From NCBI GenBank assembly GCA_018268675.1, contig JAFDWB010000081.1, positions 1 through 55,840 of the forward strand: 55,840 nt of DNA, given 5' to 3'. Made by a program: the position numbers and the translations under genes. Origin of the DNA: Actinomycetota bacterium. GTDB taxonomy: Bacteria > Actinomycetota > Thermoleophilia > Solirubrobacterales > 70-9. Below the pieces are notes generated by a model. The model had not been told where the DNA came from and ran no database searches. It saw only the letters and a program-made list of their open reading frames with translations. Every line of letters starts with the position of its first letter. Positions within the stretch are counted from its first letter, which is position 1. This document shows, piece after piece, positions 23,443 to 55,840 of the stretch.

Positions 23443-23488
23443 GAGAATTCTCACGTTGGTCCAATCAGCACACTCCACCCTGCCCGCC

Positions 23489-39995: not shown

Positions 39996-40394
39996 ATGGA
40001 GAAGAGCTACCTCAACTTCGAGGGGTCCGACCCCGGGCAGTACGGGCTCTCGGCCGGTGCCGTCGCCGGCGAAGTGGTGTTCGCCGGCGCGATGGCGATC
40101 GACATGCAGACGCTGAAGCGGCCCGTCGCGGCGGACACGATCGCGGCCGAGACGCGGCTCTGCATCGAGGACCTGGCGGCGACGCTGAGGCTCGGTGGCT
40201 GCGGCCTCGAGGACCTGGTGAAAGTGAACTGCTACCTCTCCGAGGACTCCTACCGGGGCGAGTTCTGGGCCACCTGGGACGAGGTCTTCGCCGAGGTCGA
40301 TGCGAAGATCGTGCGCCTCACCCAGGTCGTCGGGATCGCGGGCGACTGCCGGGTCGAGCTCGACGGCGTCGCGATCCGCCCGGCCGCGGGCTGA
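39996..40394 (+). CDS. RidA/RutC-family protein
   Basis: Predicted 132 aa, ATG behind GAGGAGGACGGAG. It begins MEKSYLNFEGSDPGQYGLSAG and retains the catalytic Arg (IVRLTQVVGI) and the Glu of RVELDGVA that correspond to R105 and E120 of E. coli RidA. The family hydrolyses enamine/imine intermediates, and RutC acts on aminoacrylate in pyrimidine breakdown. First of three such genes in the regulon, each resembling the others more than typical RidA. Confidence 0.85.
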   Translation: MEKSYLNFEGSDPGQYGLSAGAVAGEVVFAGAMAIDMQTLKRPVAADTIAAETRLCIEDLAATLRLGGCGLEDLVKVNCYLSEDSYRGEFWATWDEVFAEVDAKIVRLTQVVGIAGDCRVELDGVAIRPAAG

Positions 40395-41997: not shown

Positions 41998-43461
41998 ATG
42001 AGCGTGACCAGGAGCGGGATCGAGGCCGAGCTGCTGATCGGCGGCGCCGGCGGCGCGCCGGAGCGCGAGCGCCAGACCGCGGTGAGCCCGGCGAGCGGCG
42101 AGGAGCTCGGCTCCTTCCCGCTCGGGCAGGCCGAGGACGTCGAGCGGGCGGTCGCGGCGGCCGTCGCGGCGTTCGAGGACTGGGCGGCGCGCACGGTCTT
42201 CGAACGGGCCGAGGCGCTCGAACGGGTGCTCGCGGTCGCCGAAGGCCGGCGCGAGGAGATCGGCCGGCTGCTGGCGCTCGAGCAGGGCAAGCCGTTCCGC
42301 CGCGAAGCGCTCCCCGAGGTCGACGAGGCGATCGTCTTCATGCGCTACGCGATCGAGATCGCCAAGCAGCTCGAAGGCGCGATGCCGGCGCCGAGCTCGC
42401 GCGCGCGGCGCATCCTCGTCTACCGGGCGCCGCGCGGCGTGGTCGGCGCGATCCAGCCGTGGAACTACCCGCTGGGGACGCTCGGCGGCCAGATCGGGCC
42501 GGCGCTGGTTTGCGGCAACACGGTCGTCTCGATCCCGGCCCCCTCGACCACCCTGGCCGCCTACGAGTTCTGCCGCTGCTTCGAGGAAGCCGACTTCCCG
42601 GCGGGCGTCCACAACCTCGTCACCGGCCTCGGCGCGGTGGTCGGCGACGCCCTCACCGGGCACCCCGACGTGCAGGTCGTCACCTTCGCCGGCTCGGTCC
42701 CGACCGGCCGGCGGATCGCCGAACGGGCGGCGGGGAAGGCGCAGCTGATCGAGCTCGGCGGCAACGGCCCGACCGTGGTCTTCGACGACGCCGACCTCGA
42801 CCTGGTCGTGCCCGACGCGATTCGCGCGACCTACTCGCTGGCCGGGCAGAACTGCCTCGCGGCGGGCCGCTTCCTGGTCATGGACTCGATCTACGACGAG
42901 TTCGCCGAGCGCCTCACCGCGAGCGTCGCCCGCGAGGTGAAGCTGGGCGATCCGCTCGACGAAGCCTCGACGATGGGCCCGCTGAACAACGCGACCCTGG
43001 CCGAGAAGGTCGACCGCCACGTTGCCGACGCGGTCGCGGCCGGCGCCACCGTCACCCTGGGGGGCTCCCGCGCGAGCGGCTTCCCGACCGACCTCTACTG
43101 GGAACCCACGGTGCTCACCGGGGTCGAGGAGTCGATGTCGGTGGCGACCGAGGAGACCTTCGGGCCCGTCGCCCCCCTCCAGCGGATCGCCTCCGAGGCC
43201 GAGGCGCTCGAGATCATGCGCGCCTCCAGCTACGGCCTCTCCTCGGCTGTCTACACCCGCGATCTCGCCCGCGGCCTCAAGTTCGCCGAGCGCGCCCCCG
43301 CCGGCACCGTCGGCCTCAACTCGAGCACCACCGACATCGAGATGAACGTCCCCGTCGGCGGCCGCGCCGGCAAGTCGAGCGGCATCGGCCGCACCCAAGG
43401 CCGCTACCCGATGGAAGAGGTCTACACCGAGCTGAAGACCATGATCGTGAACCTGGGCTGA
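41998..43461 (+). CDS. NAD(P)-dependent aldehyde dehydrogenase
   Basis: Predicted 487 aa. Catalytic Cys about 285 in GQNCLAAGR (the usual GQ-x-C context), general-base Glu about 251 in ELGGNGPT, cofactor motif FAGSVPTGRRIAERA, and the substrate-channel block EETFGPVAPLQRI. Length and motifs match the succinate-semialdehyde/betaine-aldehyde type. Last gene of the operon that starts at O3. Confidence 0.92.
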   Translation: MSVTRSGIEAELLIGGAGGAPERERQTAVSPASGEELGSFPLGQAEDVERAVAAAVAAFEDWAARTVFERAEALERVLAVAEGRREEIGRLLALEQGKPFRREALPEVDEAIVFMRYAIEIAKQLEGAMPAPSSRARRILVYRAPRGVVGAIQPWNYPLGTLGGQIGPALVCGNTVVSIPAPSTTLAAYEFCRCFEEADFPAGVHNLVTGLGAVVGDALTGHPDVQVVTFAGSVPTGRRIAERAAGKAQLIELGGNGPTVVFDDADLDLVVPDAIRATYSLAGQNCLAAGRFLVMDSIYDEFAERLTASVAREVKLGDPLDEASTMGPLNNATLAEKVDRHVADAVAAGATVTLGGSRASGFPTDLYWEPTVLTGVEESMSVATEETFGPVAPLQRIASEAEALEIMRASSYGLSSAVYTRDLARGLKFAERAPAGTVGLNSSTTDIEMNVPVGGRAGKSSGIGRTQGRYPMEEVYTELKTMIVNLG

Positions 43462-43470
43462 GGGTTGGGG

Positions 43471-43951
43471 CCGGGAAAGCCGGCGCCCGAGGATGGACGG
43501 GCCGTCTCGTCCACGACCTGGCGGCTGTGGCCGTGGCCGAGACGGCCGGGTCCATGGGGAGAGGAAGGGCCGGCACGACCCACCAGGTGTGCCCGCCCGG
43601 GGACGGGGGCGCCCAGGATCGAGTTCGCAGAAACCCGCGGATAGCGCGGTGAAGTGCGAACTCATCGGGGGCGGGACGCCGGGTGCGGAGGAAGGTCGCG
43701 GGGGCGCGTCGGGGAAAGGGGAGGTCGGGCACGGTTCCTCCCGTCTTCCTCATGCCTTCCCATCGGTCAGGACATTGCTGTGGAGAGAAACTCGCTCTAT
43801 ACGCGAGTAAGTCACCACAGGCGCCCTGCCGCTGCCGTCCCCGGCCTCCTTTCCGCACGGGACCGTCACGAAGTCCGACGTCGCGACGTCCCCGTGCCGA
43901 CTCCCCGACGAACGCCTCACGTCCGCCCGGGACACACCTCGGACGGCCGCC
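43471..43951 (+). repeat. Multi-box intergenic element, copy B, with internal hairpins
   Basis: It starts nine bases after the aldehyde dehydrogenase stop. Box 1 is 43471-43492. Then a long stem-loop (43495-43553, core GGCCGTCTCG/CGAGACGGCC), a two-part hairpin with GAGTTCGCA/TGCGAACTC arms (43621-43663), box 2 (43728-43752), a nested stem-loop (about 43779-43820, CTGTGG/CCACAG outside ACTCGC/GCGAGT), and the end box (43915-43951). Relative to copy A about 240 bases are added between boxes 1 and 2. No convincing gene fills the 538-base gap 43462-43999. Confidence 0.6.
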
Positions 43952-43999: not shown

Positions 44000-45238
44000 T
44001 CAGACCCGGTTCAACCCCCGCTCCCGCAGGCGCGGGATGACGTGCTCGCCCATCTGCTGGACGCCGCGGTGGGGATCGAAGAAGCAGAGGGCTACCTGTT
44101 CGACGCCGGCTTCGTAGAGGCCCGCGAGTTGGTCGGCTACGGAGTCGTAGGAGCCGAAGAGGCGGTAGGCGCCCATGCCGAGGCCGAGCTCGTTGTAGTA
44201 CTCCTCGCCGATCCCGAGGTAGGGGTCGTCGGAGGTGTCGGCGCGATCTTCGCCGATCTGGTCGTCGGCGAGGACCTTTTTTTCACTGTTCATCACGTGG
44301 CCGCTGCGGATCAGCCAGTTTTCGATCGCGTCGCGGTCGATTTCCTCGCGGATCCAGTCGACGGTGGCCTCCGCCTTGGCGTCGGTCTCGTCCATGACCA
44401 CGTAGACCATCGCGCATACGCGTACCTCGCGATCGAACTTGGCGGCCATGTCGTGGAGCTTCTTGGCGCGGCCGGCGTAGGCCTCGATGCTCGAGTCGTT
44501 GGCGGTGACGAAGAGGCAGTCGCACTGCTTGCAGGCGTATTCGAGGCCCCGGTCGGAGCCCGCCGCGTTCATCAGCAGCGGGCGGGGGTTCGCCGCCGGC
44601 CGCGGGTTGATCTGGGCGCCGTGGGCCTGAAAGTACTGGCCGTCGAAGTCGATCGGCTCGTCGGAGCTCCAGAGGTACTTGAGCAGGGTGGTGAACTCGT
44701 CGGCGATGTCGTAGCGGACGTCCGAGGAGGGCACCTCGTCGAAGCCGAACTGGTGGAAGTCGCCGACGTTCTGGGCGGCGACGAGGTTGACCGCGAGCCG
44801 CCCGCCGGAGATGTAGTCGGTCGCCCCGGTGATCTTCGCGATCAGCAGCGGGTGGAATTCGTAGCCGACGTGGATCGTGGTGAAGAGGCCGAGCTTCTCG
44901 GTGGTAGCGGCGGCCGCGGCGGCGCCGGTGGCGAAGTCGAGGCTCGCGTCGTTCCAGCCGGTGGCGCCGCCGTAGCCGCTCCACATCCCGTACTGGATCT
45001 CGCTGTCGAAGCCCGCCGCCTCGGTCTCCTTCAGGAGCTTGGCGGCCGAGGGCCAGCGCCAGAAGTCGCGGTAGCGGTCGGGGTCGGCGAGCACGGCTTT
45101 GCTGGCGGAGAGGCCGGAGCGGACGTTCCAGGCGAACAGCGAGAGGTGCATGTGGTCCTTCTGCTTGAGCGCCGGCTGACCGCCCGGGTCGAACGGGCCC
45201 CGCAGCACGTCGGCCTTGATCGTCGTCTGTTGCATCAT
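44000..45238 (-). CDS. LLM-class FMNH2-dependent monooxygenase (RutA/SfnG-like)
   Basis: Predicted 412 aa, ATG behind GGAGGAAG. Luciferase barrel with LSLFAWNVRSGLSASKAVL at the start, HPLLIAKITGATDYISGGRLAVNLVAAQN near 125-155 and PLLMNAAGSDRGLEYACKQCDC. These fit the RutA/dimethylsulfone-monooxygenase branch. An N-terminal extension of about 30 residues and an inserted acidic segment near the C-terminus (GEDRADTSDDPYLGIGEEYY) are distinctive. Transcribed from O4 divergently to the hydrolase. Confidence 0.85.
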   Translation of the reverse strand: MMQQTTIKADVLRGPFDPGGQPALKQKDHMHLSLFAWNVRSGLSASKAVLADPDRYRDFWRWPSAAKLLKETEAAGFDSEIQYGMWSGYGGATGWNDASLDFATGAAAAAATTEKLGLFTTIHVGYEFHPLLIAKITGATDYISGGRLAVNLVAAQNVGDFHQFGFDEVPSSDVRYDIADEFTTLLKYLWSSDEPIDFDGQYFQAHGAQINPRPAANPRPLLMNAAGSDRGLEYACKQCDCLFVTANDSSIEAYAGRAKKLHDMAAKFDREVRVCAMVYVVMDETDAKAEATVDWIREEIDRDAIENWLIRSGHVMNSEKKVLADDQIGEDRADTSDDPYLGIGEEYYNELGLGMGAYRLFGSYDSVADQLAGLYEAGVEQVALCFFDPHRGVQQMGEHVIPRLRERGLNRV

Positions 45239-45299
45239 CTTCCTCCGGTTTCCCAAGCTGTCCGTTCGCCTGCCCTTGACTGACGGGGGCCGGTAAGGG

Positions 45300-45328
45300 A
45301 CCATACCGTCCGGTTGGTTTCTAGTCAA
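45300..45328 (-). promoter_or_regulatory. Divergent promoter with operator O4
   Basis: On the minus strand TTGACT (45328-45323), 17 bases, TATGGT (45305-45300) drives the monooxygenase. ATACCGTC-CG-GTTGGTTT (45303-45320) occupies the spacer and also lies upstream of the hydrolase start at 45346. One bound dimer could silence both directions. Confidence 0.7.
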
Positions 45329-45345
45329 CGAGGGAGGTTCGCCAG

Positions 45346-46110
45346 ATGCTGCTGAAGACCTATGAGTGGGGCGACGCCGATGCCCCGGCGCTCGTCTGCA
45401 TCCACGGGGTCGGCAGCCACCACGCCGAATTCCGCCACGTCGCCGAAGACCGCTGGTCGAAGCAGTTCCGGGTCATCGCCTTCGACCTCCGCGGCCACGG
45501 GTACTCCGGCTGGGAGCCGCCGTGGGACCACGCCACCTACCTCGACGACATCATCGAGACGGTCGACTCGCTAGGGCTCGAGGCGCCGAACTGGGTCGGC
45601 CACTCGTTCGGCGGCCGCCTCGTCTTCGACCTGATCGCGCGGGCGCCGGAGCGGGTCCGCCGCGGTGTGTCGATGGAGCCGGTGATCGAGGTCTCGCCGG
45701 AGCTGGCCATGCACCGGGCCCAGCAGGAGCTGACCGGCGACGTCTGGGACTCGCTCGACGCCTTCGTCGCCAGCCGCGAGAACACCGGCACCGACATCGA
45801 CGTCGAGCTCTACAAGGAGAAGCTGGCCGACCACTTCGAGGAGCTGCCGGACGGCCGCGTGCGCCGGCGCACCTGCCAGCCTGCCGTCGTCGCGATCTTC
45901 AGCGAGTTCGCCAAACCGTGCGCGCCACCGGAGACGATCACGGTGCCGACGATGCTCCTCTACTCGCCTGCCTTCGGCCTCGTCACGCCGGAGCAGCGCG
46001 CCGCCTACGAGCCCTACGTCGCCGAGGTGGTCGAGGTCCCGGGCCTCCACGACGTCTTCAACACCGCCTACGAGGAGACGGCCTCCGCAGTCGAGCGCTT
46101 CTGCGCCTGA
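45346..46110 (+). CDS. Alpha/beta hydrolase (RutD-like position)
   Basis: Predicted 254 aa, ATG behind GGGAGGTTCG. Oxyanion loop HGVGSHH near 19-25, nucleophile Ser about 86 in GHSFGG, DLRGHGYSG, and catalytic His in PGLHDVF near 231. In the Rut pathway RutD, also an alpha/beta hydrolase, speeds aminoacrylate hydrolysis. Here the presence beside a RutA homologue and RidA-type genes suggests an analogous step or ester/amide hydrolysis. Tail-to-tail with the RidA gene, ten bases apart. Confidence 0.85.
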   Translation: MLLKTYEWGDADAPALVCIHGVGSHHAEFRHVAEDRWSKQFRVIAFDLRGHGYSGWEPPWDHATYLDDIIETVDSLGLEAPNWVGHSFGGRLVFDLIARAPERVRRGVSMEPVIEVSPELAMHRAQQELTGDVWDSLDAFVASRENTGTDIDVELYKEKLADHFEELPDGRVRRRTCQPAVVAIFSEFAKPCAPPETITVPTMLLYSPAFGLVTPEQRAAYEPYVAEVVEVPGLHDVFNTAYEETASAVERFCA

Positions 46111-46120
46111 GCGGCGGCGG

Positions 46121-46450
46121 TCAGGCCGTCGGGGAGGTCTCGGCGACCGCCTCGATCTGGACGCGGCAGTCGCCGGCGAGGCCGAGGACGACGGTGCAGC
46201 GGGCGGGGTAGGGACCGTCGCCGAAGTGCTCCTTGTAGGCGCCGACGAACTCCATCCGGTGCGACTCGTCGCTGAGGTAGCAGGTCGTCTTGACGATGTC
46301 CTTGCGGGCGAGGCCGGCGGCCGCCAGCTGCGCTTCGATTTTTTCCATCACGATCCGCGTCTCGGCGGCGACGGTATCGGCCTCGGGCAGGCGCCTCACC
46401 GTCTCGATGTCGATCGCGAGGCTCGATGCGTAGACGAACGGACCGGTCAT
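46121..46450 (-). CDS. RidA-family protein with altered catalytic site
   Basis: Predicted 109 aa, ATG behind GAGAGAGGAATC. About 20 residues shorter at the N-terminus than its neighbour encoded at 46546, to which its second half is very similar (KDIVKTTCYLSDESHRMEF and FGDGPYPARC). The Arg of PARC is kept, but the position of E120 in E. coli RidA is Gln (CRVQIEAVA). Loss of both the first strand and the Glu suggests a non-deaminating or regulatory partner. It has its own promoter sharing O5. Confidence 0.8.
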   Translation of the reverse strand: MTGPFVYASSLAIDIETVRRLPEADTVAAETRIVMEKIEAQLAAAGLARKDIVKTTCYLSDESHRMEFVGAYKEHFGDGPYPARCTVVLGLAGDCRVQIEAVAETSPTA

Positions 46451-46498
46451 TGACGATTCCTCTCTCTCCAGGCGCGCGGCCGGCGTGGACTTGCCTGG

Positions 46499-46528
46499 TA
46501 TAGTACCGGCCAGTTGGTACGTTGCCAA
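46499..46528. promoter_or_regulatory. Divergent promoter with operator O5
   Basis: GTACCGGC-CA-GTTGGTAC (46503-46520). On the minus strand TTGGCA (46528-46523), 17 bases, TACTAT (46505-46500). On the plus strand an extended -10 TGGTATAGT ends at 46504. The operator lies between the boxes, as at O4. Confidence 0.7.
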
Positions 46529-46545
46529 CACGAAAGGGAGCGTAG

Positions 46546-46938
46546 ATGCCGAAGTTCCTCAACGCGCCGGGCAACCCCGGTGCCCAGTACGGACTCTCCT
46601 CCGCCGCCGTCAGCGGCGACTACATGTTCGCCGCGGGTATGGCCCTCGACTTCGACACCCTCCAGCGCAGCGCGGACGCGGTCGAGGTCGCCGACGAGAC
46701 GCGTATCTGCCTGGCCGGCATCGAGGCGAAGCTCAAGGAGGGCGGGTTCGCCCTGAAGGACATCGTCAAGACGACGTGCTGGATCAGTGACGAGTCCCAC
46801 AGGATGGAGTTCATCCAGGCCTACCGCGACTACTTCGGCGACGGTCCCTACCCGGCCCGCTGCTCCTTCGTCGCCGGCCTGGCGGGCGGCTGCCGGGTCG
46901 AGATCGACGCCGTCGCCTACCGCGCCGCCGCCGCGTAG
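46546..46938 (+). CDS. RidA/RutC-family deaminase
   Basis: Predicted 130 aa, ATG behind AAAGGGAGCG. Full-length RidA fold beginning MPKFLNAPGNPGAQYGLSSA, with catalytic Arg in YPARCSFV and Glu in CRVEIDAVA. It probably hydrolyses an enamine/imine or peracid intermediate made by the monooxygenases. Close paralogue of the 46121 product, apparently by an inverted duplication around O5. Confidence 0.88.
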   Translation: MPKFLNAPGNPGAQYGLSSAAVSGDYMFAAGMALDFDTLQRSADAVEVADETRICLAGIEAKLKEGGFALKDIVKTTCWISDESHRMEFIQAYRDYFGDGPYPARCSFVAGLAGGCRVEIDAVAYRAAAA

Positions 46939-46970
46939 CAGGCTGCCGCCCGGGACCGCGGCCCTCGGCG

Positions 46971-48581
46971 TCAGGCGAGCCCGGGCCGGAGGTGCACGAA
47001 GGTGCGGCGGGCGGGTGGGGCGGCGAGGAGGTCGCTCAGGCCGGCGAGGTCCTCGGGGCGCCGGTAGGTGAAGCCGTGGGAGCGGGCGAGGAGGTCGAAG
47101 TCGGGGTTCTGGAGGTCGACCGAGGTCGGCGGGATGCCGGCGGCGACCATGTCTTCGCGGATCTGGCCGAGGGCGTCGTTGTCCCAGAGGATGACGGTGA
47201 GCTCGAGGTCGAGTTCGGTGGCGGTCATCAGCTCGCTCGCGGTGTAGAGGAGGCCGCCGTCCCCGACCACGGCGTATGATCGGGCGCTCGGATCGGCGAC
47301 CGCGCCGCCGATCGCCGCCGGGACCGCGTAGCCGAGGCTGCCGAAGCCGGCCGGGAAGAGGAAGCGGCCGGGACGGTCGGCGGTGAAGCGCCAGCAGCCG
47401 ACGTAGGCGAGCTGGGTCATGTCGGCGAAGACGCGCGCCGCGGGTGGGATCGACGCGCGGATCGTGTCGACGATCGCGATCAGCTCGGCCTCGCCGTCGC
47501 CGAGCGGGCGCGCCGCCGCCGGGCGCAGGGCGGCGACCTCGGCCACCGCCTCGCCGCGGTCCCGGGCGGCCGCCCCCGCGCCCGGCCCGTCCTCGGGCCC
47601 GGCCGCCGCGAGCAGGGCGCGGGCGAACGCACCCGCGTCGGCCCGCACCGCGACGTCCGCCCCGTAGGGCCCGCGCAGCACCTCGTCATCGATGTCCACG
47701 TGGACCACCGGCCCGCCCAGCTCGACCGGCGTGACGGTGTCGGTCTCCGACAGCTCGGTGCCGAGGAGGAGGACGAGGTCGCGCTCCGCCAACCAGGCGT
47801 GCGCCGCCGGGCGCGAGAGCAGGGCGCCCGCCAGCAGCTCGTGGCCGGCGGGGACGACCCCGATGCCCGCGGTGGTGGTCAGGACCGGGAGCCCGAAGCG
47901 CTCCGCCAGGGCCGTCTGGCCGGCCGGCGACCACCGTGTCCCGCCGCCGAGCACCAGCACGGGCCGCCGCGCTTCGCGCAAACGTCCCAGCACCGCCTCT
48001 ACCTCAACCGCCGGCGGGTCCGGGGCGGGCGCCGCCGCCGGCACCTCCGCGAGACCGTCGAGCGCGTCGTCGGCAAGCACCGCGCGGAGCACGTCGGTCG
48101 GTACCTCGAGCCCGACCGGCCGCGGCCGTCCCTCGCCCAGCTCCCCGAGCAGCGCCCGCAGGGAGAGCACCGCGTCGCGCGGATCGTCCGCGTGCCGCGC
48201 CGCCTTCGTCACCTGCGCGAGCACGTCGAGCTGGCGCTGCAGCTCGTGGAGGAGCCCCCAGCCGCGCCCGGCGCTCGTCGCCGGCGTCGTGCTCGCCAGC
48301 ACCACCATCGGCACCGAGTCGCTCCGCGCCTGGCCGATCCCGGTCGACGCGTTGGTCAGCCCCGGCCCGGTGATCACGCAGCAGGCCGCGGGCTCGCCTG
48401 ACGCCCGCGCGTGGCCGTCGGCCATGAACGCCGCGCCACCCTCGTGCCGCGCCGCCACGGTGCGGATGCCGGCCGCCGCGAAGCCGCGGTAGTACTCGAG
48501 CGTGTGCACCCCGGGGATCCCGTAGACGACCCGGATGCCGTGGTCCCGCAGCGTTCGCGCCAGCGCCTCGCCGGTCTTCAT
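46971..48581 (-). CDS. Thiamine-diphosphate-dependent decarboxylase/synthase (acetolactate-synthase-like)
   Basis: Predicted 536 aa from ATG at 48581 (MKTGEALARTL). PYR domain with GIPGVHTLEYYRG and catalytic Glu in RHEGGAAFMADGHAR near 46. Central FAD/nucleotide-like domain with VLVLGGGTRWSP. C-terminal PP domain with VVGDGGLLYTASEL and ILWDND, the ThDP motif. The overall pattern resembles enzymes annotated 5-guanidino-2-oxopentanoate decarboxylase and other 2-oxo acid decarboxylases more than true acetolactate synthase, from memory. Operator O6 covers its start region. An upstream ATG at 48593 would lie inside that operator. Confidence 0.8.
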   Translation of the reverse strand: MKTGEALARTLRDHGIRVVYGIPGVHTLEYYRGFAAAGIRTVAARHEGGAAFMADGHARASGEPAACCVITGPGLTNASTGIGQARSDSVPMVVLASTTPATSAGRGWGLLHELQRQLDVLAQVTKAARHADDPRDAVLSLRALLGELGEGRPRPVGLEVPTDVLRAVLADDALDGLAEVPAAAPAPDPPAVEVEAVLGRLREARRPVLVLGGGTRWSPAGQTALAERFGLPVLTTTAGIGVVPAGHELLAGALLSRPAAHAWLAERDLVLLLGTELSETDTVTPVELGGPVVHVDIDDEVLRGPYGADVAVRADAGAFARALLAAAGPEDGPGAGAAARDRGEAVAEVAALRPAAARPLGDGEAELIAIVDTIRASIPPAARVFADMTQLAYVGCWRFTADRPGRFLFPAGFGSLGYAVPAAIGGAVADPSARSYAVVGDGGLLYTASELMTATELDLELTVILWDNDALGQIREDMVAAGIPPTSVDLQNPDFDLLARSHGFTYRRPEDLAGLSDLLAAPPARRTFVHLRPGLA

Positions 48582-48591
48582 CGCGGACAAC

Positions 48592-48605
48592 ATACCGCTC
48601 GGTCT
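48592..48605 (-). promoter_or_regulatory. Short-spaced operator O6 at the ThDP gene start
   Basis: ATACCG-CT-CGGTCT has the same ACCG/CGGT half sites as the regulon operators but only two bases between them, like O3. It lies ten bases upstream of the chosen start on the minus strand. Confidence 0.45.
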
Positions 48606-48614
48606 GGGGAGGGC

Positions 48615-48663
48615 TTGACTCCTGCCGGGAGCCTCTATACGGTCCATACCGACTAGTCGGAGT
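48615..48663 (+). promoter_or_regulatory. Promoter and operator O7 of the RutA-like operon
   Basis: TTGACT (48615-48620) and TATACG (48636-48641, spacer 15) followed by ATACCGACTAGTCGGAGT (48646-48663), whose centre CCGACTAGTCGG is a perfect 12-bp palindrome. CCTCTATA before the operator is shared with the O3 promoter. Confidence 0.7.
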
Positions 48664-48732
48664 GTTGCGGGTCGCGCCGCGGGCGCGATTCCCGCGCGCC
48701 TCGTGGAACCCGAGAAGAAGGATTGGTCGGCA

Positions 48733-49803
48733 ATGGATTTCGGCATTTTCATGCCCAGCGCCCGCAACGGCTACATCGTCTCCGAGGCAGCGCCGCAGTA
48801 CTCGCCCTCCTACCGGTTGATGAACGAGATCACCGACGCGGGGGAGGAGAACGGGTTCAAGTTCGCGCTCTCGCTGGTCACCCTGCGCGGCTTCGGCGGC
48901 CCGACCCGGACCTGGGACGACGCCCTCGAGTCCTTCACCCTGATGTCGGCGCTGGCGCCGGCCACCGAGAACATGCGCCTCTACGCCTCGGTCGCGCAGC
49001 TGACCCAGCACCCGGCGGTGATCGCGCGGATGGCGATGACGATCGACGACATCTCCGGCGGTCGTTTCGGCGTCAACATGGTGACCGGCTGGCAGCGGAC
49101 CGAGTTCGCCGCGATGGGCCTCTGGCCCGGCGACGAGTACTACTCGACCCGGTACGACTACTGCCGCGAGTACGTGACGATCATGAAGGAGCTCTGGCGC
49201 GACGGCGTCAGCAGCTTCAAGGGCCGCTACTTCCAGCTCGAGGACTGCCGCCTGGGGCCGCTGCCCGAGCACCACATCGAGATCGTCTCCGCCGGGCTCT
49301 CCGACAAGGGCGTCGAGTTCATCGGCGAGCACGCCGACTACTCCTTCCGGCTCGGCGAAGGCGGGCTCGACGGGATCGCGGCGAACACCCGCAAGGTGGT
49401 CGAGGCGGGCCGCCGCAACGGTCGTGAGGTCGGCACCCACGCCGCCTACTACGTCTTCGTCGAGGACACCGACGAGGAGGCGCGGCGGACGGTCGAGCGC
49501 TACCGCGACGCCGCCGACACGGTCGCGATCCGCACCATGCAGGGCGAGGCGGGCGCGGACACCGCGGGGACGACGGCGAAGGCGATCGTCGATCGCGACG
49601 GGACCTTCATGTCGACCGACGTGATCGCGGGCTCGCCCGAAACCGTCGCTGCCTACTTCGACCGCCTCGCCGAGATCGAGGGCCTCGATGGCGTGATGCT
49701 CTGCTTCGACGACTACGTCCGCGGGATCAACCGGATCGGCAAAGAGGTCGCGCCGCTGATGAAATCCCGCGCCGCGGCGGACCCGGCGGGGACGCCGGCG
49801 TGA
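48733..49803 (+). CDS. rutA: Pyrimidine-type flavin monooxygenase, RutA homologue
   Basis: Predicted 356 aa. ATG preferred over GTG at 48703 because MDFGIFMPSARNGYI matches the RutA core start and GAGAAGAAGGA lies upstream. It shares with E. coli RutA, as I recall that sequence, the blocks APQYSPSY, FALSLVTLRGFGG, ESFTLMSALA, ARMAMTIDDISGGRFGVN, VTGWQ, LWPGDEYYSTRYDY and EDCR. RutA uses FMNH2 and O2 to open the uracil ring between N3 and C4. The match is strong enough to infer chemistry on a cyclic amide, but the true substrate may differ. It overlaps the SDR gene by GTGA. Confidence 0.88.
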   Translation: MDFGIFMPSARNGYIVSEAAPQYSPSYRLMNEITDAGEENGFKFALSLVTLRGFGGPTRTWDDALESFTLMSALAPATENMRLYASVAQLTQHPAVIARMAMTIDDISGGRFGVNMVTGWQRTEFAAMGLWPGDEYYSTRYDYCREYVTIMKELWRDGVSSFKGRYFQLEDCRLGPLPEHHIEIVSAGLSDKGVEFIGEHADYSFRLGEGGLDGIAANTRKVVEAGRRNGREVGTHAAYYVFVEDTDEEARRTVERYRDAADTVAIRTMQGEAGADTAGTTAKAIVDRDGTFMSTDVIAGSPETVAAYFDRLAEIEGLDGVMLCFDDYVRGINRIGKEVAPLMKSRAAADPAGTPA

Positions 49804-50564
49804 GCGGCGGGCGGCTCGACGGTCGGGTCGCCATCGTCACCGGCGGGGCCCGCGGCCAGGGCGCGTCGCACGGTGAGCTGCTGGCGGGGGAGGGCGCCCG
49901 AGTGGTCCTCGCCGACGTGCTCGACGCGGAGGGGGAGGCGACGGCGGCGCGCCTGCGCGAGCGCGGCCTCGTGGTCGAGTACCGCCACCTCGACGTGACC
50001 AGCCCGGCGGAGTGGCGGGCGCTGGTCGAGGCGACCGAGGCGGCGCACGGCAAGCTCGACGTGCTCGTCAACAACGCCGGGGTCGTCGGCTTCGCCGGCG
50101 TCGCCGAGTGCGCCGACGAGGAGTGGGAGCGGGTCCTCGCCGTCAACCAGACCGGCGTCTTCTACGGCATCCGCGCCGCGGTCCCGGCGCTGCGCCGGGC
50201 GGGCGGCGGCAGCATCGTCAACACCGCGTCGGTGCTCGGTCTCGACGGCGCCGACGGGTACGCCGCCTACATCGCGAGCAAGGCGGCGGTGATCGGGCTG
50301 ACCAAGAGCGTCGCCCTGACCCACGGCCGCGACAACATCCGCGCCAACGTGATCTGCCCCGGGGTGGTCGAGACGCCGATGCTCGAACAGGAGGTGGCGA
50401 CGGTGGGGCGCGAGGGGCTCGAGGAGTTCGTCGGCCGCCAGCCGATCCCGCGCACCGGCAGGCCGGAGGAGGTCTCGCGCGCGGTGCTCTACCTGGCGAG
50501 CGAGGACTCGAGCTATGTCACCGGGGCGGTGCTGGTGGTCGACGGCGGCTTCCACGCGGGCTGA
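49800..50564 (+). CDS. Short-chain dehydrogenase/reductase (classical SDR)
   Basis: Predicted 254 aa, GTG start overlapping the monooxygenase stop. Cofactor motif TGGARGQGASHG, an acidic residue in VVLADVLD suggesting NAD(H), NNAGV, catalytic Ser/Tyr/Lys in TASVLG and YIASK near 157-161, and C-terminal DGGFHAG. In the Rut pathway malonic semialdehyde is reduced by RutE. An SDR could take that step here, which is inference. Confidence 0.9.
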   Translation: MSGGRLDGRVAIVTGGARGQGASHGELLAGEGARVVLADVLDAEGEATAARLRERGLVVEYRHLDVTSPAEWRALVEATEAAHGKLDVLVNNAGVVGFAGVAECADEEWERVLAVNQTGVFYGIRAAVPALRRAGGGSIVNTASVLGLDGADGYAAYIASKAAVIGLTKSVALTHGRDNIRANVICPGVVETPMLEQEVATVGREGLEEFVGRQPIPRTGRPEEVSRAVLYLASEDSSYVTGAVLVVDGGFHAG

Positions 50565-50615
50565 CGGCGGCGGTGGCGGCGCGAACTTGGCAAGCAGCGA
50601 GTGAGGAGGAGTGAG

Positions 50616-51419
50616 ATGGAGGGAGCGAGTGAGCAGAGCGTCTATTCCCTGCCGGGGCTGAGCGGGAAGGTGGCGCTGGTGACCGGCGGCGGTTCCGGAA
50701 TCGGCGCGGCGAGCGCCCTCTGCCTCGGCGCCTCGGGTGCGCGGACGATCGTCGTCGGCCGCAACCGCGAGCGGCTCGAGGCCAGCGTTGCGGCGATCCG
50801 CGCGGCGGGCGGCGAGGCCGACCTGCTCGTCTGCGACGTCGACGAGGACGGCGCCGCGGCGCTCCTGGTCGAGGAAGCCGTGGCGCTTGCCGGGCGGATC
50901 GACGTCCTCCTCCTCTCCGCCGGCCGCTACGAGGCGGAGCCGCTGGAGGAGGCGGGCGTCGGCAGCCTCGACCGCCAATACCGGACCAACGTCCGCGCGC
51001 CCTACGAACTGATCGCGGCGGCCCTGCCGCAGCTGCGCGACGGCGGCGCGGTGGTCGTGATCAGCTCGATCGTCGCCTTCGCCGGGTTCCCAGGATCGGC
51101 CGCCTACTGCGCCTCGAAGGGCGCCGTGGATGCGCTGGTCAGGGCGCTCGCGGGGGAGCTCGGCCCGCAGGGCGTGCGCGTCAACGCGATCGCGCCGGGG
51201 GAGACGGAAACGTTGATGAACCAGGCCTACTACGCCGAAGACCCCGACTACCTCCCCCGTATGGCCGCGGTCACCCCGGCCGGCCGCGCCGCGAAGCCCG
51301 CCGACATCGGCCCGGTCGCCGCCTTCCTCGCCTCCGACGCGGCGGGCTGGGTGCACGGCGAGACCGTGGTGGTGGACGGCGGGCTGACGGCATCGATCCC
51401 AGGGTCGATCCCGCAGTAG
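50616..51419 (+). CDS. Short-chain dehydrogenase/reductase (classical SDR)
   Basis: Predicted 267 aa, ATG behind GAGGAGGAGTGAG. TGGGSGIGAASA, Arg in GRNRERLEA suggesting NADP(H), LSAGRYE (in place of the usual NNAG), catalytic SSIVAFAG and YCASK near 163-167, and DGGLTASIPG at the end. Second SDR in the O7 operon, not a close copy of the first, so probably acting on another intermediate. Confidence 0.9.
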   Translation: MEGASEQSVYSLPGLSGKVALVTGGGSGIGAASALCLGASGARTIVVGRNRERLEASVAAIRAAGGEADLLVCDVDEDGAAALLVEEAVALAGRIDVLLLSAGRYEAEPLEEAGVGSLDRQYRTNVRAPYELIAAALPQLRDGGAVVVISSIVAFAGFPGSAAYCASKGAVDALVRALAGELGPQGVRVNAIAPGETETLMNQAYYAEDPDYLPRMAAVTPAGRAAKPADIGPVAAFLASDAAGWVHGETVVVDGGLTASIPGSIPQ

Positions 51420-51448
51420 GACGGGGCGCCGCCGGCTGCCGCCCGGGC

Positions 51449-51500
51449 GGCGCGGCCATCCCCCTCATCGACGGCTGGCTATGAGGGCGATGGCCGCGCC
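51449..51500 (+). repeat. Covarying hairpin, copy 2
   Basis: Perfect 12-bp outer stem GGCGCGGCCATC/GATGGCCGCGCC, then CCCTCAT/ATGAGGG around a 12-base loop, with the same unpaired C on the 3' side as in 30616-30668. Two base pairs of the outer stem differ from copy 1, and both are changed on both strands. Confidence 0.65.
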
Positions 51501-51592
51501 TTGGCGTGCCCCGGCCCGGGCGTCGCCGCCACAGAGGTCGCGCGGCGCCCAGAGGGGAGCGCGGTCGACCTTTACCGCGGTGGCCCCCACGC

Positions 51593-51643
51593 CGGTGAGT
51601 TCGCAGTTGGCCACAACAGTTGTAGATAACTGCGAACTCACCG
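51593..51643 (-). repeat. Long palindrome with DnaA-box-like halves, copy 2
   Basis: Perfect 16-bp arms CGGTGAGTTCGCAGTT and complement. The 37-base centre is the exact reverse complement of that at 30791-30827, while the outer arm bases differ yet still pair. It lies about 90 bases after the covarying hairpin. The remainder of the 372-base gap 51420-51791 holds GC-rich imperfect hairpins and the ribBA promoter. Confidence 0.75.
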
Positions 51644-51714
51644 CGGGCGCGCCGAGAGGCGTCAGCCGGCGATGCTCGCAGGTCATTCCCAAGAGCTGGT
51701 CGCTGGCAGAGCAA

Positions 51715-51740
51715 AGACCGACTGGTTGGTATGATACTAT
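51715..51740 (+). promoter_or_regulatory. Operator O8 and extended -10 of ribBA
   Basis: AGACCGAC-TG-GTTGGTAT (51715-51732) runs into an extended -10, TGATACTAT (51732-51740). No -35 is recognisable, as expected for an extended -10 promoter. The leader to the GTG start would be about 45 bases. Confidence 0.7.
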
Positions 51741-51791
51741 CCTCGCGGATGATGTGTGCGTGTCGTGTCTGACCGTTGGGAGGTGATCGGG

Positions 51792-53060
51792 GTGGACGAT
51801 CGGGAAAGTGTGAAGAGGGCGCTTCGGGCAGTTGCGGCCGGGGGAATGGTGGTCGTGGTCGACGACGAGGACCGCGAGAACGAGGGCGACCTGGTGATGG
51901 CCGCCGATCTGGTGCGGGCCGAGGACATCAACTTCATGGCGCGATACGGGCGCGGGCTGATCTGCGTGGCGATCGACGAGCGGCGGGCGGCGCAACTGGC
52001 GCTGCCGCCGATGGCGCGGGAGGCGGACGCGCTCCACGGCACCGCCTTCACCGTCTCCGTCGACCTGCGGGGGGAGGGTCGGACCGGGATCAGCGCCGCC
52101 GACCGGGCCGACACGATCGCCGCCCTCTGCGATCCCGCCACGGCGCCGCAGGACCTCGCCCGGCCCGGGCACGTCTTCCCGCTCGCCGCCCGCCCCGGCG
52201 GCGTGCTGCGGCGCCGCGGCCACACCGAGGCCGCCCGCGACCTCGCCGAGCTCGCCGGGCGCGCCCCCGCCGGGGTGCTGGTCGAGATCCTCGACGACGA
52301 CGGGACGATGGCGCGCCGCTTGCGGCTCGAGCGCTTCGCCGCCGAGCACGGGCTGCCGATCGTCTCGGTCGCCGCGCTGGTCGAGTTCCGCGAGGCCGAA
52401 GGCCGCCAGGTCGTGAAGGTCGCCGAGGCCTCGATGCCGACCGGCGCGGGCGCCGGCACCGTGTCGGTGTACGAGTCGCTCGCCGACGGTGGCGAGCTGG
52501 TCGCCACCGTGGTCGGCGAGATCGACGACGGCGAGGACGTCCTCGTCCGCCTCCACTCAGAGTGCCTCACCGGCGACGTGCTCGGCTCCGCCCGCTGTGA
52601 CTGCGGCGCCCAGCTGCGGCTCGCGCAGGAGCGGATCGCGGCCGCCGGCCGCGGCGTCCTCGTCTACGTGCGCGGCGACGAGGGGCGGGCGATCGGCCTC
52701 ACGCAGAAGGTGCGCGCCTACGCGCTGCAGGACCGCGGTTACGACACCGTCGACGCCAACCTCGCCCTCGGCCATCCCGCCGACGGCCGCGACTACGCCG
52801 CCGCCGCGGCCGTCCTCGACGACCTCGGGGTGCGCTCGGTGCGCCTCCTCACCAACAACCCGGACAAGTGCGCCCAGCTGGCCGAGCACGGCATCGAGAT
52901 CAGCGCCCGGCTCGGGCTCGAGGCCCCGGCGACCGCCGGCAACCTCACCTACCTGGACACCAAGCGCGAGCGGATGGGGCACCTGCTCGGCGCCGCGGCG
53001 GAGGCCCTCCGCCCGTCGCCCGCCGCTCCCCAGGTAACCGACCAACTCGTCGGTCTCTAG
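51792..53060 (+). CDS. ribBA: Bifunctional DHBP synthase / GTP cyclohydrolase II (riboflavin synthesis)
   Basis: Predicted 422 aa. GTG at 51792 chosen because GGGAGGTGATC sits at ideal distance and the N-terminus then matches RibB length. An in-frame GTG at 51756 would leave almost no leader. RibB half: DDEDRENEGD near 20-29, HGTAFTVSVD, RPGHVFPL and GGVLRRRGHTEAA. RibA half: HSECLTGDVLGSARCDCG near 254-271 (zinc cysteines) and RGDEGRAIGL. It makes both riboflavin precursors. Control by O8 ties flavin supply to the flavin-monooxygenase regulon. Confidence 0.93.
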   Translation: MDDRESVKRALRAVAAGGMVVVVDDEDRENEGDLVMAADLVRAEDINFMARYGRGLICVAIDERRAAQLALPPMAREADALHGTAFTVSVDLRGEGRTGISAADRADTIAALCDPATAPQDLARPGHVFPLAARPGGVLRRRGHTEAARDLAELAGRAPAGVLVEILDDDGTMARRLRLERFAAEHGLPIVSVAALVEFREAEGRQVVKVAEASMPTGAGAGTVSVYESLADGGELVATVVGEIDDGEDVLVRLHSECLTGDVLGSARCDCGAQLRLAQERIAAAGRGVLVYVRGDEGRAIGLTQKVRAYALQDRGYDTVDANLALGHPADGRDYAAAAAVLDDLGVRSVRLLTNNPDKCAQLAEHGIEISARLGLEAPATAGNLTYLDTKRERMGHLLGAAAEALRPSPAAPQVTDQLVGL

Positions 53061-53067
53061 TTAGGAT
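53039..53067 (+). promoter_or_regulatory. Operator O9 and -10 of the acyl-CoA dehydrogenase operon
   Basis: CGACCAAC-TC-GTCGGTCT (53039-53056) overlaps the last codons of ribBA. TAGGAT (53062-53067) ends ten bases before the ATG at 53078, so the transcript has little or no leader. No clear -35. Confidence 0.6.
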
Positions 53068-53077
53068 CAGGGGCGCG

Positions 53078-54172
53078 ATGGCCGCCGAAGAGATCACCGC
53101 CCCCGCCGGCGCCGACGAGGAGCTGCAGCTCCTCCGCGGCGTCCTCGGCGAAGCGATGGCGGCCCGCTTCCCGGCCGACTGGGAGCCGGGCGCCCCGGGC
53201 GACATCGACGCCGACGCCTGGGCCGAGGCGACGGAGCTCGGCTGGGACCAGGTCGCGCTGCCCGAGGACCAGGGCGGCTTCGGCAGCGGCATCGTCGCCC
53301 TGATGACGCTGGCCGAGATGGCCGGCCGCCACCGCCTCCCGCTGCCGCTGGTGGAGACGGCGCTCGCCCGCGGGATCCTCGCCGCGGCGGGTATCGAGCA
53401 GCCCGAGCCCGGCGCGGTCCTCACCGTGGCGCCGCTCCTGCTCGACTCCAGCCTCGCCCTCACCAGCGCCCCGAGCGGCCTCTTCCTCAACGGCACCGCC
53501 CGCCGCCTTCCCTGGGCGCGGGCCGCGAGCCACGCCGTCGTCGGCGGCTCCGAAGGCGTCGTCCTCGCCGACCTGCGCAGCGACGGGATCCGGGTCGTCC
53601 CCAGCGAGAGCCTGGCCCGCGAGCCTCGCGACGACGTCCGCTTCGACGGCGCCCAGGTCGTCGCCCACGCCGCCGACCCGGCGCTCGCCGAGGACCTGGC
53701 GGCGCGCGCGGGCCTCGTCCGCTGCGCCCAGATCCACGGGGCGCTGGTCGCGGCCCTCGCCCTGACCCGCGAGCACACCGCCTCCCGCCGGCAGTTCGGC
53801 CGCACCCTCGACAGCTTTCAGATGGTCGGCGCCCACCTCGCCCAGATGGCCGCCCACCTCGCCCTGGTCGAGGCCTCGCTGCGCGACGCCACGGCCGCCC
53901 ACGGCGGCCCGGCGGGACCGACGGCGCGCACCGCGCTCAAGGTCATCGCCGCGGAAGCGGCCGGCGCGGCGGCCCGCTCGGCGCACCAATGCCACGGCGC
54001 GATCGGGGTCACCGCCGAGTACCGCCTCGGCCACTACACGACGCGGCTGTGGTCGTGGCGGGAGGAGTTCGGGGACGAGTTCGAGGCCCGCGCGGCGCTC
54101 GGCCGCGAGGCACTCCGCGCCGCCGGCCCGGGACTCTGGGCACTGAGCGAGCCGCGCCTGGAGGCGGCATGA
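53078..54172 (+). CDS. Acyl-CoA dehydrogenase family protein
   Basis: Predicted 364 aa. The N-terminal helical domain has LGWDQVALPEDQGGFGSG, the middle beta domain is shortened, and the C-terminal domain has ALVAALALTREHTASRRQFGRTLDSFQ and ARSAHQCHGAIGVTAEYRLG. This is the FadE/CaiA-like actinobacterial type that often forms heteromers with a second subunit. None is present here. FAD-dependent, so it also depends on the co-regulated RibBA. The start is at or near the 5' end of the message. It overlaps the next gene by ATGA. Confidence 0.87.
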   Translation: MAAEEITAPAGADEELQLLRGVLGEAMAARFPADWEPGAPGDIDADAWAEATELGWDQVALPEDQGGFGSGIVALMTLAEMAGRHRLPLPLVETALARGILAAAGIEQPEPGAVLTVAPLLLDSSLALTSAPSGLFLNGTARRLPWARAASHAVVGGSEGVVLADLRSDGIRVVPSESLAREPRDDVRFDGAQVVAHAADPALAEDLAARAGLVRCAQIHGALVAALALTREHTASRRQFGRTLDSFQMVGAHLAQMAAHLALVEASLRDATAAHGGPAGPTARTALKVIAAEAAGAAARSAHQCHGAIGVTAEYRLGHYTTRLWSWREEFGDEFEARAALGREALRAAGPGLWALSEPRLEAA

Positions 54173-54951
54173 CCGAGAAGCGCGAGTTCCAGATGCTGCG
54201 GCTGGAGCGGCGCGCCGACGGCGTCCGCAACCTGATCCTCGACGACCCCGACAAACGCAACGCGATCGGGCCGGTGATGCGGGAGGAGCTGCTCGCCGCG
54301 GTGAGCGACCTGCGCGCCGACGCCGAGGCCCGGGTGCTGGTCGTCTCCGGCGCCGGCAAGGCCTTCTGCGCCGGCGCCGACCTGGGCGCGATCTTCGACT
54401 CCGGCGGCCGCACGCCGGCCGAGATGCGCGACCGCCAGCTCGCCTACTACGAGAGCTTCCTCGGGATCGGCGACCTGCCGTTCCCGACCGTCGCCGCGGT
54501 CGACGGGGCGGCGATCGGCGCGGGGCTCAACCTCGCCCTCGTCTGCGACATCACCCTCGCCGGCCCGCACGCGAAGTTCGGCGTCACCTTCGCGAAACTG
54601 GGCCTGCACCCGGGCGGCGGCTGCACCTACTTCCTCACCCGCGCGGTCGGGCCGGGGCGGGCGCTGCGGGCGATGCTGCTCGGCTCGGTGATCGGCGGCG
54701 AGGAGGCGGCGCGGATCGGCCTCGCCGACGACTACTCCGAGGACCCGCTCGCCGCCGCCGAGGAGCTGGCGACGGCGGTCGCGCAGCTCGAGCCGAGCCT
54801 CGCCCGCGACATGAAGAAAGCGGTGGCGATCGCCGCCGCCGACAGCCTCGAGGCGGCGGTGGGCTTCGAATCCTGGGCCCAGACCGCCTCCGCCTTCTAC
54901 CCTGGCGTGGTCGAGGGGATCCGCGCCGCCGGCCGCAGCACCGCCAGGTGA
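54169..54951 (+). CDS. Crotonase-superfamily protein lacking the hydratase glutamates
   Basis: Predicted 260 aa. Crotonase fold with oxyanion-hole segment AFCAGADLGAIFD near 62-74 and DGAAIGAGLNLALVCDITLAG near 105-125. Compared with rat enoyl-CoA hydratase, the positions of both catalytic Glu (E144, E164) are Phe in FGVTFAKLG and Arg in PGRALRAMLLG. Ordinary water addition is therefore doubtful. Isomerase, thioesterase or C-C bond chemistry on a CoA ester is possible. Coupled to the acyl-CoA dehydrogenase by ATGA. Confidence 0.82.
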   Translation: MTEKREFQMLRLERRADGVRNLILDDPDKRNAIGPVMREELLAAVSDLRADAEARVLVVSGAGKAFCAGADLGAIFDSGGRTPAEMRDRQLAYYESFLGIGDLPFPTVAAVDGAAIGAGLNLALVCDITLAGPHAKFGVTFAKLGLHPGGGCTYFLTRAVGPGRALRAMLLGSVIGGEEAARIGLADDYSEDPLAAAEELATAVAQLEPSLARDMKKAVAIAAADSLEAAVGFESWAQTASAFYPGVVEGIRAAGRSTAR

Positions 54952-54963
54952 GCGCCGCTCCCG

Positions 54964-55008
54964 TTGAATCGGCGCCGCCCGGCAACTAACATACCGACCA
55001 GTCCGTCT
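54964..55008 (+). promoter_or_regulatory. Promoter and operator O10 of the flavin reductase-tetR unit
   Basis: TTGAAT (54964-54969), 17 bases, TAACAT (54987-54992), overlapped by ATACCGAC-CA-GTCCGTCT (54991-55008) at the expected start point. The unit contains the TetR gene, so this would give autoregulation. Confidence 0.7.
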
Positions 55009-55022
55009 TATAACGAGGAGCC

Positions 55023-55544
55023 ATGACCAGCGCGACCATCGATCCGGAGACCTTCAAGGCGATAATGGCGAACGCGCCGGGCCCGGCGACCGTCGTCACC
55101 GCCTTCGACGCGGCGGGCGAGCCGCACGGCCTCACCGTCTCCGCCGTGTGCTCGGTGTCGCTCGATCCGCCGCTCGCGCTCGCCTGCCTCGACCTCGGCT
55201 CGAACACCCTCGCCGCGCTGCGCGAAAGCGGCGGCTTCACGATCAACTATCTGGCCGATGGCCGCCACCAGGTCGCGCTCGGCTTCGCCACCAAGTCGGG
55301 GGCGAAGTTCGAAGGCCACTCCTGGGTCGCCCCCGAGGGCAAGGTCGGCGGCCCGATCCTGATCGAGCACGTCGCCGCCCACGCCGCCTGCGAGACGGAG
55401 CGGCTGATCGACGCCGGCGACCACGTGATCGCGGTCGGCCGCGTGGTCGAGGGCGGCGCCCACGAGGTCCTGCACGCGATGGCCTACGCGCGGCGCCAGT
55501 TCTTCACCGGCCGCGACGTCGTGATCGAGAGAAGCGAGGGGTGA
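55023..55544 (+). CDS. NAD(P)H:flavin reductase (RutF/HpaC-like)
   Basis: Predicted 173 aa, ATG behind GAGGAGCC. Flavin-reductase split barrel: FKAIMANAPGPATVVTAF, GLTVSAVCSVSLDPPLALACLD, FTINYLADGRHQVALGFA and AYARRQFFTG. It supplies reduced FMN to the luciferase-type monooxygenases, the role of RutF in the Rut system. Seven bases separate it from the TetR gene. Confidence 0.9.
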   Translation: MTSATIDPETFKAIMANAPGPATVVTAFDAAGEPHGLTVSAVCSVSLDPPLALACLDLGSNTLAALRESGGFTINYLADGRHQVALGFATKSGAKFEGHSWVAPEGKVGGPILIEHVAAHAACETERLIDAGDHVIAVGRVVEGGAHEVLHAMAYARRQFFTGRDVVIERSEG

Positions 55545-55551: not shown

Positions 55552-55840
55552 GTGGCGGTGAACCGCGCTGTCGGGGGACGGAAACCCGCCCGGGCGACCA
55601 CCCGCAGGCGCGGGCGCGTCTCGCGCGACCCCGACGGCACCCGCCGCGCCCTGGTCGAGACCGCCCTCGGCCTCTTCGAGGCCCACGGCTACGCCGGCAC
55701 CCCGGTCCAGCGCATCGTCGACCAGGCGGGCCTCACCAAGGGCGCCTTCTACCACCACTTCGAGACCAAGGAGGATCTCCTCTACGAGATCCACGACGAG
55801 TTCATCGACGACCAGCTCTCCCGCGCCCGCGAGGTCATGG
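55552..55840 (+). CDS. TetR-family repressor (runs off the window)
   Basis: GTG at 55552 (an in-frame GTG also at 55558), behind GAGGGGTGA. The visible 96 codons include an Arg-rich arm RRRGRVSRD, then the TetR HTH (about 33-80): RRALVETALGLFEAHGYAGT, VQRIVDQAGLTKGAFYHHF and ETKEDLLYEI. The ligand-binding domain lies beyond the window. Position inside the O10 unit, and the fact that TetR proteins bind palindromes of this size, make it the best candidate to recognise all the ACCGAC operators. E. coli RutR is also TetR-type, though its site differs. Confidence 0.88.
   Translation, partial: MAVNRAVGGRKPARATTRRRGRVSRDPDGTRRALVETALGLFEAHGYAGTPVQRIVDQAGLTKGAFYHHFETKEDLLYEIHDEFIDDQLSRAREVM

Follow-up and report, generated by a model that had tools for sequence, protein, structure and literature searches.

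A RutA-family monooxygenase of a separate clade in an apparent TetR-controlled regulon on an actinobacterial contig

The DNA analysed here (the window) spans contig C79 from end to end, 55,840 nucleotides from a bacterium of the Actinomycetota; it makes up 1.3% of a genome of 4.2 Mb in 95 contigs with 71% GC. From about position 32,000 to the contig end it carries what appears, from the sequence, to be a block of at least 20 genes under a single TetR-family repressor, among them a gene for a relative of the flavin monooxygenase RutA. This enzyme is RutA-family by descent and is not the RutA of the Rut pathway. The chances seem to us roughly even that the block is a regulon for the inducible breakdown of a nitrogenous small molecule, combining luciferase-like monooxygenases (LLMs) that use reduced flavin, Rid proteins and an exit of the carbon through coenzyme A (CoA) metabolism. 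An earlier note had described a Rut pathway with swapped parts; that description is not supported, since the RutA relative falls outside the clade of the Rut-operon RutAs and the accompanying Rid proteins, hydrolase and reductase are not RutC, RutD and RutF. The substrates characterised for RutA, the model enzyme of flavin-N5 amide cleavage, are pyrimidines. With its different, conserved gene set, the present deep clade of the family is a defined place to seek new flavin-N5 C-N cleavage chemistry.

The operator and the extent of the regulon

A TetR-type operator, TACCRACYRGTYGGW, is present in at least nine copies between 32,005 and 55,006 of the window. Nine palindromic sites of the form ACCGACYRGTYGGT were located by motif search, and every copy lies at or just upstream of a gene start, or between divergent genes. 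With a TetR gene in the cluster and a repeated palindromic operator in its promoters, the block has the make-up of a TetR-controlled regulon; the single regulon with a common operator proposed in the earlier note is supported, and the repressor would be expected to bind the sites listed here, with its own gene in the last line:

32005-32018, copy 1, upstream of the PNPOx-like gene
32440-32453, copy 2, upstream of the F420-type LLM
33400-33413, copy 3, upstream of the ATP-binding cassette (ABC) importer operon
45305-45318, copy 4, divergent LLM2/hydrolase promoter
46505-46518, copy 5, divergent Rid2/Rid3 promoter
48648-48661, copy 6, divergent promoter of the thiamine diphosphate (ThDP)-dependent and RutA-like enzymes
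51717-51730, copy 7, upstream of RibBA
53041-53054, copy 8, upstream of the acyl-CoA dehydrogenase
54993-55006, copy 9, upstream of the flavin reductase
55552-55840 (+), TetR regulator gene, 5' part, cut by the contig end; 62% identity to the TetR of an Antrihabitans locus described below

Allowing at most one mismatch, ACCGACYRGTYGGTNTG has six sites genome-wide, five in C79 and the sixth on contig C25, 400 bases from its end and next to the second half of the repressor gene; with two mismatches allowed, the other contigs combined gave about as many sites as a reversed control pattern. The 14-mer ACCGACYRGTCGGT with up to three mismatches matched the window 32 times against 14.5 expected, and none of 100 shuffles reached this number. 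In 75 further RutA-bearing loci totalling 1.37 Mb, TACCRACYRGTYGGW has a single match at one mismatch or fewer on both strands; the window has nine.

The operator is similar to TACCGACCGNTNGGTN, the operator of PfmR (PMC7022988). The Thermus PfmR (TTHB023) regulon also has a TetR repressor and fatty-acid-related targets, but it belongs to another organism and holds other genes; because the operators resemble each other, an acyl-CoA-type inducer is possible by analogy. A TetR paralogue, 33% identical, lies beside an operator-like site at G000:C7:60000-72000 (L123). Judged by appearance, the adjoining genes may encode an LLM, an aldehyde dehydrogenase and a hydrolase, and the locus could be another regulon of this type.

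The 3' part of the TetR gene was found, by a search with the Antrihabitans TetR, at C25:168014-168139 (-), as a fragment running off the contig end. After this fragment and the sixth operator, C25 carries a further monooxygenase (LLM3), a CoA-acylating methylmalonate-semialdehyde dehydrogenase (MMSDH) and a thiolase. The MMSDH belongs to TIGR01722, which it matches with 479.7 bits against a curated cut-off of 448.5. The order flavin reductase, TetR, LLM3, MMSDH, thiolase across C79 and C25 agrees with that in relatives; Amycolatopsis has LLM3, flavin reductase, TetR and MMSDH in succession. Because halves of the TetR gene lie at both contig ends and the gene order is as in relatives, the two contigs are likely to be adjacent in the genome. 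Parts of the regulon not covered by the earlier note are the C25 continuation, the left part from 32,005, the LLMs at 38818 and 32479, the ThDP enzyme (46971), RibBA (51756) and the TetR gene (from 55552 to the contig end). In the window, the TetR gene is preceded by these genes of the regulon:

32034-32459 (+), PNPOx_N family flavin/F420 protein; Pfam PF01243
32479-33309 (+), F420-type LLM oxidoreductase; TIGR03619, above cut-off
33506-34459 (+), dipeptide-type ABC permease (DppB-like); profile scan
34459-35394 (+), second ABC permease; DppC-like by position and sequence, the scan having covered part of its length
34962-37202 (+), fused dipeptide-type ABC ATPases with two ABC domains; the actual start is probably at about 35,390
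37232-38821 (+), family 5 solute-binding protein; profile scan
38818-39981 (+), LLM1, core monooxygenase of the module; 49-52% identity to five relatives
39996-40394 (+), Rid-family protein 1; profile scan
40416-41993 (+), GMC oxidoreductase; 58-63% identity to relatives, among the best conserved parts
41998-43461 (+), aldehyde dehydrogenase; profile scan
44000-45238 (-), LLM2, window-specific; longest open reading frame begins at 45328, likely start near 45238
45346-46110 (+), alpha/beta hydrolase (not RutD); profile scan
46121-46495 (-), Rid-family protein 2; catalytic Arg conserved, start approximate
46546-46938 (+), Rid-family protein 3; catalytic Arg conserved
46971-48590 (-), ThDP-dependent enzyme; nearest 5-guanidino-2-oxopentanoate decarboxylase, 458.5 bits versus a cut-off of 500
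48733-49803 (+), RutA-like flavin monooxygenase of a non-Rut clade; profile, tree, model
49800-50564 (+), short-chain dehydrogenase/reductase (SDR) 1; profile scan
50601-51419 (+), SDR 2; profile scan
51756-53060 (+), RibBA (DHBP synthase/GTP cyclohydrolase II); probable supply of flavin mononucleotide (FMN)
53078-54172 (+), acyl-CoA dehydrogenase-like protein; start placed from the sequence
54169-54951 (+), enoyl-CoA hydratase; 60-62% identity to loci L059 (Nocardia) and L075 (Antrihabitans)
55023-55544 (+), flavin reductase, HsaB-like; 66-68% identity to three relatives

The RutA relative and its partners

The protein encoded at 48733-49803 is, as the earlier note had it, a clear RutA homologue, aligning with E. 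coli RutA from end to end at about 40% identity. Its score against TIGR03612 (RutA), 395.8 bits, lies below the equivalog cut-off of 498.3. In a tree of 84 RutA-family proteins (an earlier build had used a distant outgroup) the six RutA relatives of the module described below form a clade of their own with support of 100/98.2, and 39 Rut-operon RutAs form a separate clade with support of 100/99.4. Given the sub-cut-off score and its position outside the rutB-linked clade, the protein is not the RutA equivalog of the Rut pathway; full-length homology and the retention of oxygen-pocket residues place it in the broad RutA family. These residues, L65, N134, V136 and F224, are all kept, as are W139 and E143, and T105 is replaced by serine, as in most non-Rut members; the roles of T105, N134 and the oxygen pocket in RutA have been described (PMC10005588, PMC7662398). 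Module and Rut clades differ at positions 28-30, 67 and 146 (I28S, G29A, N30R, M67L; Q146 lost). In an AlphaFold2 model (pLDDT 85.7) the nearest structures are RutA crystal structures, with TM-scores of 0.88-0.89 and 40-42% identity. It is the separate clade, the kept pocket residues and the nearest structures, taken together, that identify the enzyme as RutA-family by descent and not a Rut-pathway RutA. It probably works like RutA, and flavin-N5 chemistry is predicted for it. The flavin-N5-oxide/peroxide LLMs RutA, DszA and HcbA1 share with it the group C two-component monooxygenase fold and N134, L65, V136 and F224 of RutA, but T105 is Ser in the window protein, and this likeness is one of residue conservation.

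The other proteins that had been given Rut names fit them less well. LLM2, called a second RutA/SfnG-like enzyme, is indeed an LLM; it matches NtaA/DmoA (133.9 bits), RutA (130.9) and SfnG (125.2) about equally, all far below cut-off. The three RutC-like proteins are members of the Rid family, and they are not RutC because their scores are far under the TIGR03610 cut-off of 169.1: there is no listing for Rid1 under that model, and Rid2 and Rid3 reach 25.5 and 20.8 bits. The catalytic Arg is kept in two to three of the three (recorded for Rid2 and Rid3), so an activity related to RutC deamination is possible. In the alignment the E. coli RidA control served only for placing this Arg; E. coli RutC (L115) gives the same column. 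The alpha/beta hydrolase was correctly recognised, with RutD matching at only 36 bits against a cut-off of 238.5. The supposed RutF-like reductase is not a RutF FMN reductase: it is nearer to HsaB (89.7 bits) than to RutF (56.8 bits, cut-off 254.75).

The absence of RutB, RutE and RutG was confirmed among the annotated regulon proteins. Xan_ur_permease (PF00860), the family of the RutG-type uracil permease, has no match in the genome and is found in 11 of 14 control genomes. The genome does encode five isochorismatase-fold proteins, all on contigs other than C79, and no match to E. coli RutB was found in the relatives that carry the module.

Recurrence and rarity of the module

A scan of 84,980 species genomes for RutA relatives yielded at least 80 loci, and among the matches listed five carry the module: Amycolatopsis jejuensis (L052), Antrihabitans (L057 and L075), Nocardia cyriacigeorgica (L059) and Sphingosinicella soli (L061). 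In all five, which come from a handful of unrelated soil bacteria, LLM1, Rid proteins and GMC adjoin the RutA relative. The recurring core consists of LLM1, the RutA-like enzyme, Rid and GMC; most loci add flavin reductase, LLM3, MMSDH, thiolase and RibBA, and some have enoyl-CoA hydratase. Identity of the window proteins to these relatives is 50-52% for the RutA-like enzyme, 49-52% for LLM1, 58-63% for GMC, 66-68% for flavin reductase and 71-74% for LLM3 (each in three of five), and 61-64% for MMSDH and 61-73% for thiolase (each in four of five). The relatives' RutA-like proteins are 69-90% identical to that of Amycolatopsis, and that of the window only 50-52% to them; on these sequences it is the window version that is divergent. 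An amidohydrolase is present in four of the five related loci and, in three, the ammonium transporter Amt stands beside the RutA relative.

The operator TACCRACYRGTYGGW occurs in the four actinobacterial module loci, with three to eight copies each, and was not found in the module locus of Sphingosinicella soli. Core and operator thus recur together in the four actinobacteria, and the core also in the fifth genome. The importer, LLM2, ThDP enzyme, hydrolase, acyl-CoA dehydrogenase, F420-type LLM and PNPOx protein have no close match in the five relatives' loci searched, where no SDR exceeds 34% identity. Several genes that the earlier note had stressed (importer, LLM2, hydrolase, SDRs) are present and lie outside the recurring core. 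With the gene list fixed by the operator, the culturable hosts Amycolatopsis jejuensis, Antrihabitans and Sphingosinicella soli make substrate screening practical.

The module is rare. Among the window's own kin no recurrence was seen: the RutA-like protein was missing from the 60 nearest genomes (E 1e-60), and the other 398 genomes sampled from the class lacked it as well (E 1e-90). Three samples of about 400 genomes each, drawn from the orders to which Amycolatopsis and Sphingosinicella belong and from the phylum of the window, held LLM1 in one or two genomes apiece, the centre genome counted, with one new distant match overall. LLM1 was not found on public plasmids, and DNA-level plasmid matches to the window were short pieces only, mostly ABC transporter genes. 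This patchy distribution suggests horizontal spread of the module.

Other RutA relatives keep different company. A further RutA-family clade, mostly from metagenome-assembled genomes of Acidimicrobiales (L036-L045, L047-L049, L054, L062), lies beside a distant isochorismatase-like protein with 25-31% identity to RutB; no other rut genes matched in the DNA searched. The Rhodococcus PD04/GD02 plasmid cluster resembles the window in having a RutA relative (46% identical), a dipeptide-type ABC importer, a flavin reductase and a second LLM, but differs in its GntR regulator and in carrying acetamidase/formamidase, amidase and amidohydrolase; neither an LLM1 or GMC match nor the operator was found there. 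Rhodococcus plasmid loci L033 and L034, one strain being from coking-plant wastewater, hold a RutA relative, dipeptide-type ABC importer, flavin reductase, acetamidase/formamidase and amidase, and are a candidate for another non-pyrimidine RutA pathway.

A proposed pathway and its alternatives

From the gene content, the regulon would work as follows. An inducer, probably an acyl-CoA or another pathway intermediate, would release the repressor, so that the importer, RibBA, flavin reductase and several reduced-flavin-dependent LLMs are made; RibBA and the reductase would set up two-component flavin chemistry. The RutA-like enzyme, probably via a flavin-N5 oxygen adduct, would then cleave an amide-like C-N bond of a likely cyclic nitrogenous substrate, and LLM1 and LLM3 would oxidise or cleave flanking carbons. 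The Rid proteins could convert enamine or imine products to carbonyl compounds and ammonia, for which RutC and RidA provide a precedent (PMC8113886). GMC and aldehyde dehydrogenases would oxidise alcohol and aldehyde groups, and MMSDH, enoyl-CoA hydratase, acyl-CoA dehydrogenase and thiolase would deliver acetyl- and propionyl-CoA.

Two elements of this scheme had been anticipated. A CoA-linked exit of the carbon agrees with the MMSDH and thiolase genes of C25 and with those of the window for acyl-CoA dehydrogenase and enoyl-CoA hydratase. That the substrate contains nitrogen is likely, given that two to three of the Rid deaminases keep the catalytic Arg and that Amt and amidohydrolase occur in related loci. 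The descriptions "larger than uracil" and "cyclic amide" are guesses. The regulon is best read as rare and probably spread horizontally, with a nitrogenous substrate, probably a cyclic amide or heteroaromatic compound, whose carbon would be released by way of semialdehyde and acyl-CoA steps; both the nature of the substrate and the order of steps are read from the genes. More tentatively, and at rather less than even chances, the module may represent a second, non-pyrimidine pathway built on a distinct RutA clade, in which the RutA-like enzyme, LLM1 and LLM3 open an N-heterocycle or cyclic amide by C-N cleavage, followed by Rid deamination and a (methyl)malonate semialdehyde exit, as a TetR regulon spreading among Actinomycetota and, with another regulator, Sphingomonadales. 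No matching pathway with such a gene set, pyridine-type and other N-heterocycle clusters included, was found in the open-licence articles searched. A progesterone LLM/Baeyer-Villiger monooxygenase cluster was considered as a match and dropped, having another context and no counterpart of that monooxygenase here.

Several observations weigh against the proposed C-N-cleaving regulon. Between C79 and C25 a stretch of the TetR gene, about 80 residues, is lacking. Neither the Amt nor the amidohydrolase of the relatives is encoded in the window, and for the amidohydrolase the genome as a whole gives no more than a weak match. LLM1 and LLM3 resemble luciferase and type II Baeyer-Villiger types more than RutA, so that part of the pathway may act on C-C instead of C-N bonds, and the structure model of LLM1 is poor (pLDDT 61.5).

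The E. coli rut operon (RutA-G, RutR) is among the known systems closest to that of the window. Both systems have a RutA-family monooxygenase with its oxygen-pocket residues kept bar T105S, a flavin reductase, Rid deaminases and TetR-type control. The window differs in the separate clade of its RutA relative, in lacking RutB, RutE and RutG, in Rid proteins that are not RutC, an HsaB-like reductase and several more LLMs; and where the rut operon excretes 3-hydroxypropionate, the window has an MMSDH/thiolase/acyl-CoA exit. A divergent uracil/thymine pathway is conceivable, in which the RutA-like enzyme opens the pyrimidine, a non-RutB hydrolase removes the carbamoyl group, Rid yields (methyl)malonate semialdehyde and MMSDH replaces RutE to give acetyl- or propionyl-CoA. 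The conserved oxygen pocket and RutA as nearest solved structure are in keeping with this, as is the above-cut-off MMSDH, which takes the product of RutC itself, malonate semialdehyde (PMC8113886). We nevertheless judge it unlikely in view of the separate clade with its changes in the N-terminal stretch and the loss of Q146, the absence of RutB/C/D/E/F/G partners and of a uracil permease in the genome, and the conserved LLM1, LLM3, GMC and thiolase, which have no role in known pyrimidine breakdown.

Similarly improbable is a general xenobiotic, terpenoid or organosulfur degradation, in which the LLMs would be Baeyer-Villiger or desulfurising enzymes and the Rids only a guard against reactive imines. 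In its favour, LLM1 has matches to luciferase and diketocamphane monooxygenase, the scores of LLM2 against SfnG and NtaA/DmoA are about the same, and the breakdown of the progesterone side chain is known to involve Baeyer-Villiger enzymes of the LLM type (PMC12239570); however, there are three Rid genes in the window regulon and two Rid types in several relatives, Amt lies beside the RutA relative in three loci, and no sulfonate importer or sulfur-regulator gene was seen among the scanned proteins. That the block is instead a secondary metabolite biosynthetic cluster, with LLM and GMC as tailoring enzymes, seems very improbable: it contains LLMs similar to the luciferase-like monooxygenase of PDB 7BIP, but no polyketide synthase, non-ribosomal peptide synthetase or terpene cyclase was present among the scanned proteins, and the importer, MMSDH, thiolase and acyl-CoA enzymes indicate catabolism.

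Two further features of the contig were recorded. Two DUF347 repeat proteins, whose function is without assignment, are encoded side by side at 23114-24706 and 24703-25497. Near-identical intergenic hairpins of the GAGTTCGCAG...CTGCGAACTC type lie at 30787-30839, 51588-51640 and 43620-43667, the first two being 96% complementary over 53 nt; these are perhaps terminators or a palindromic repeat family, and a hairpin of similar look is found at the end of contig C25.

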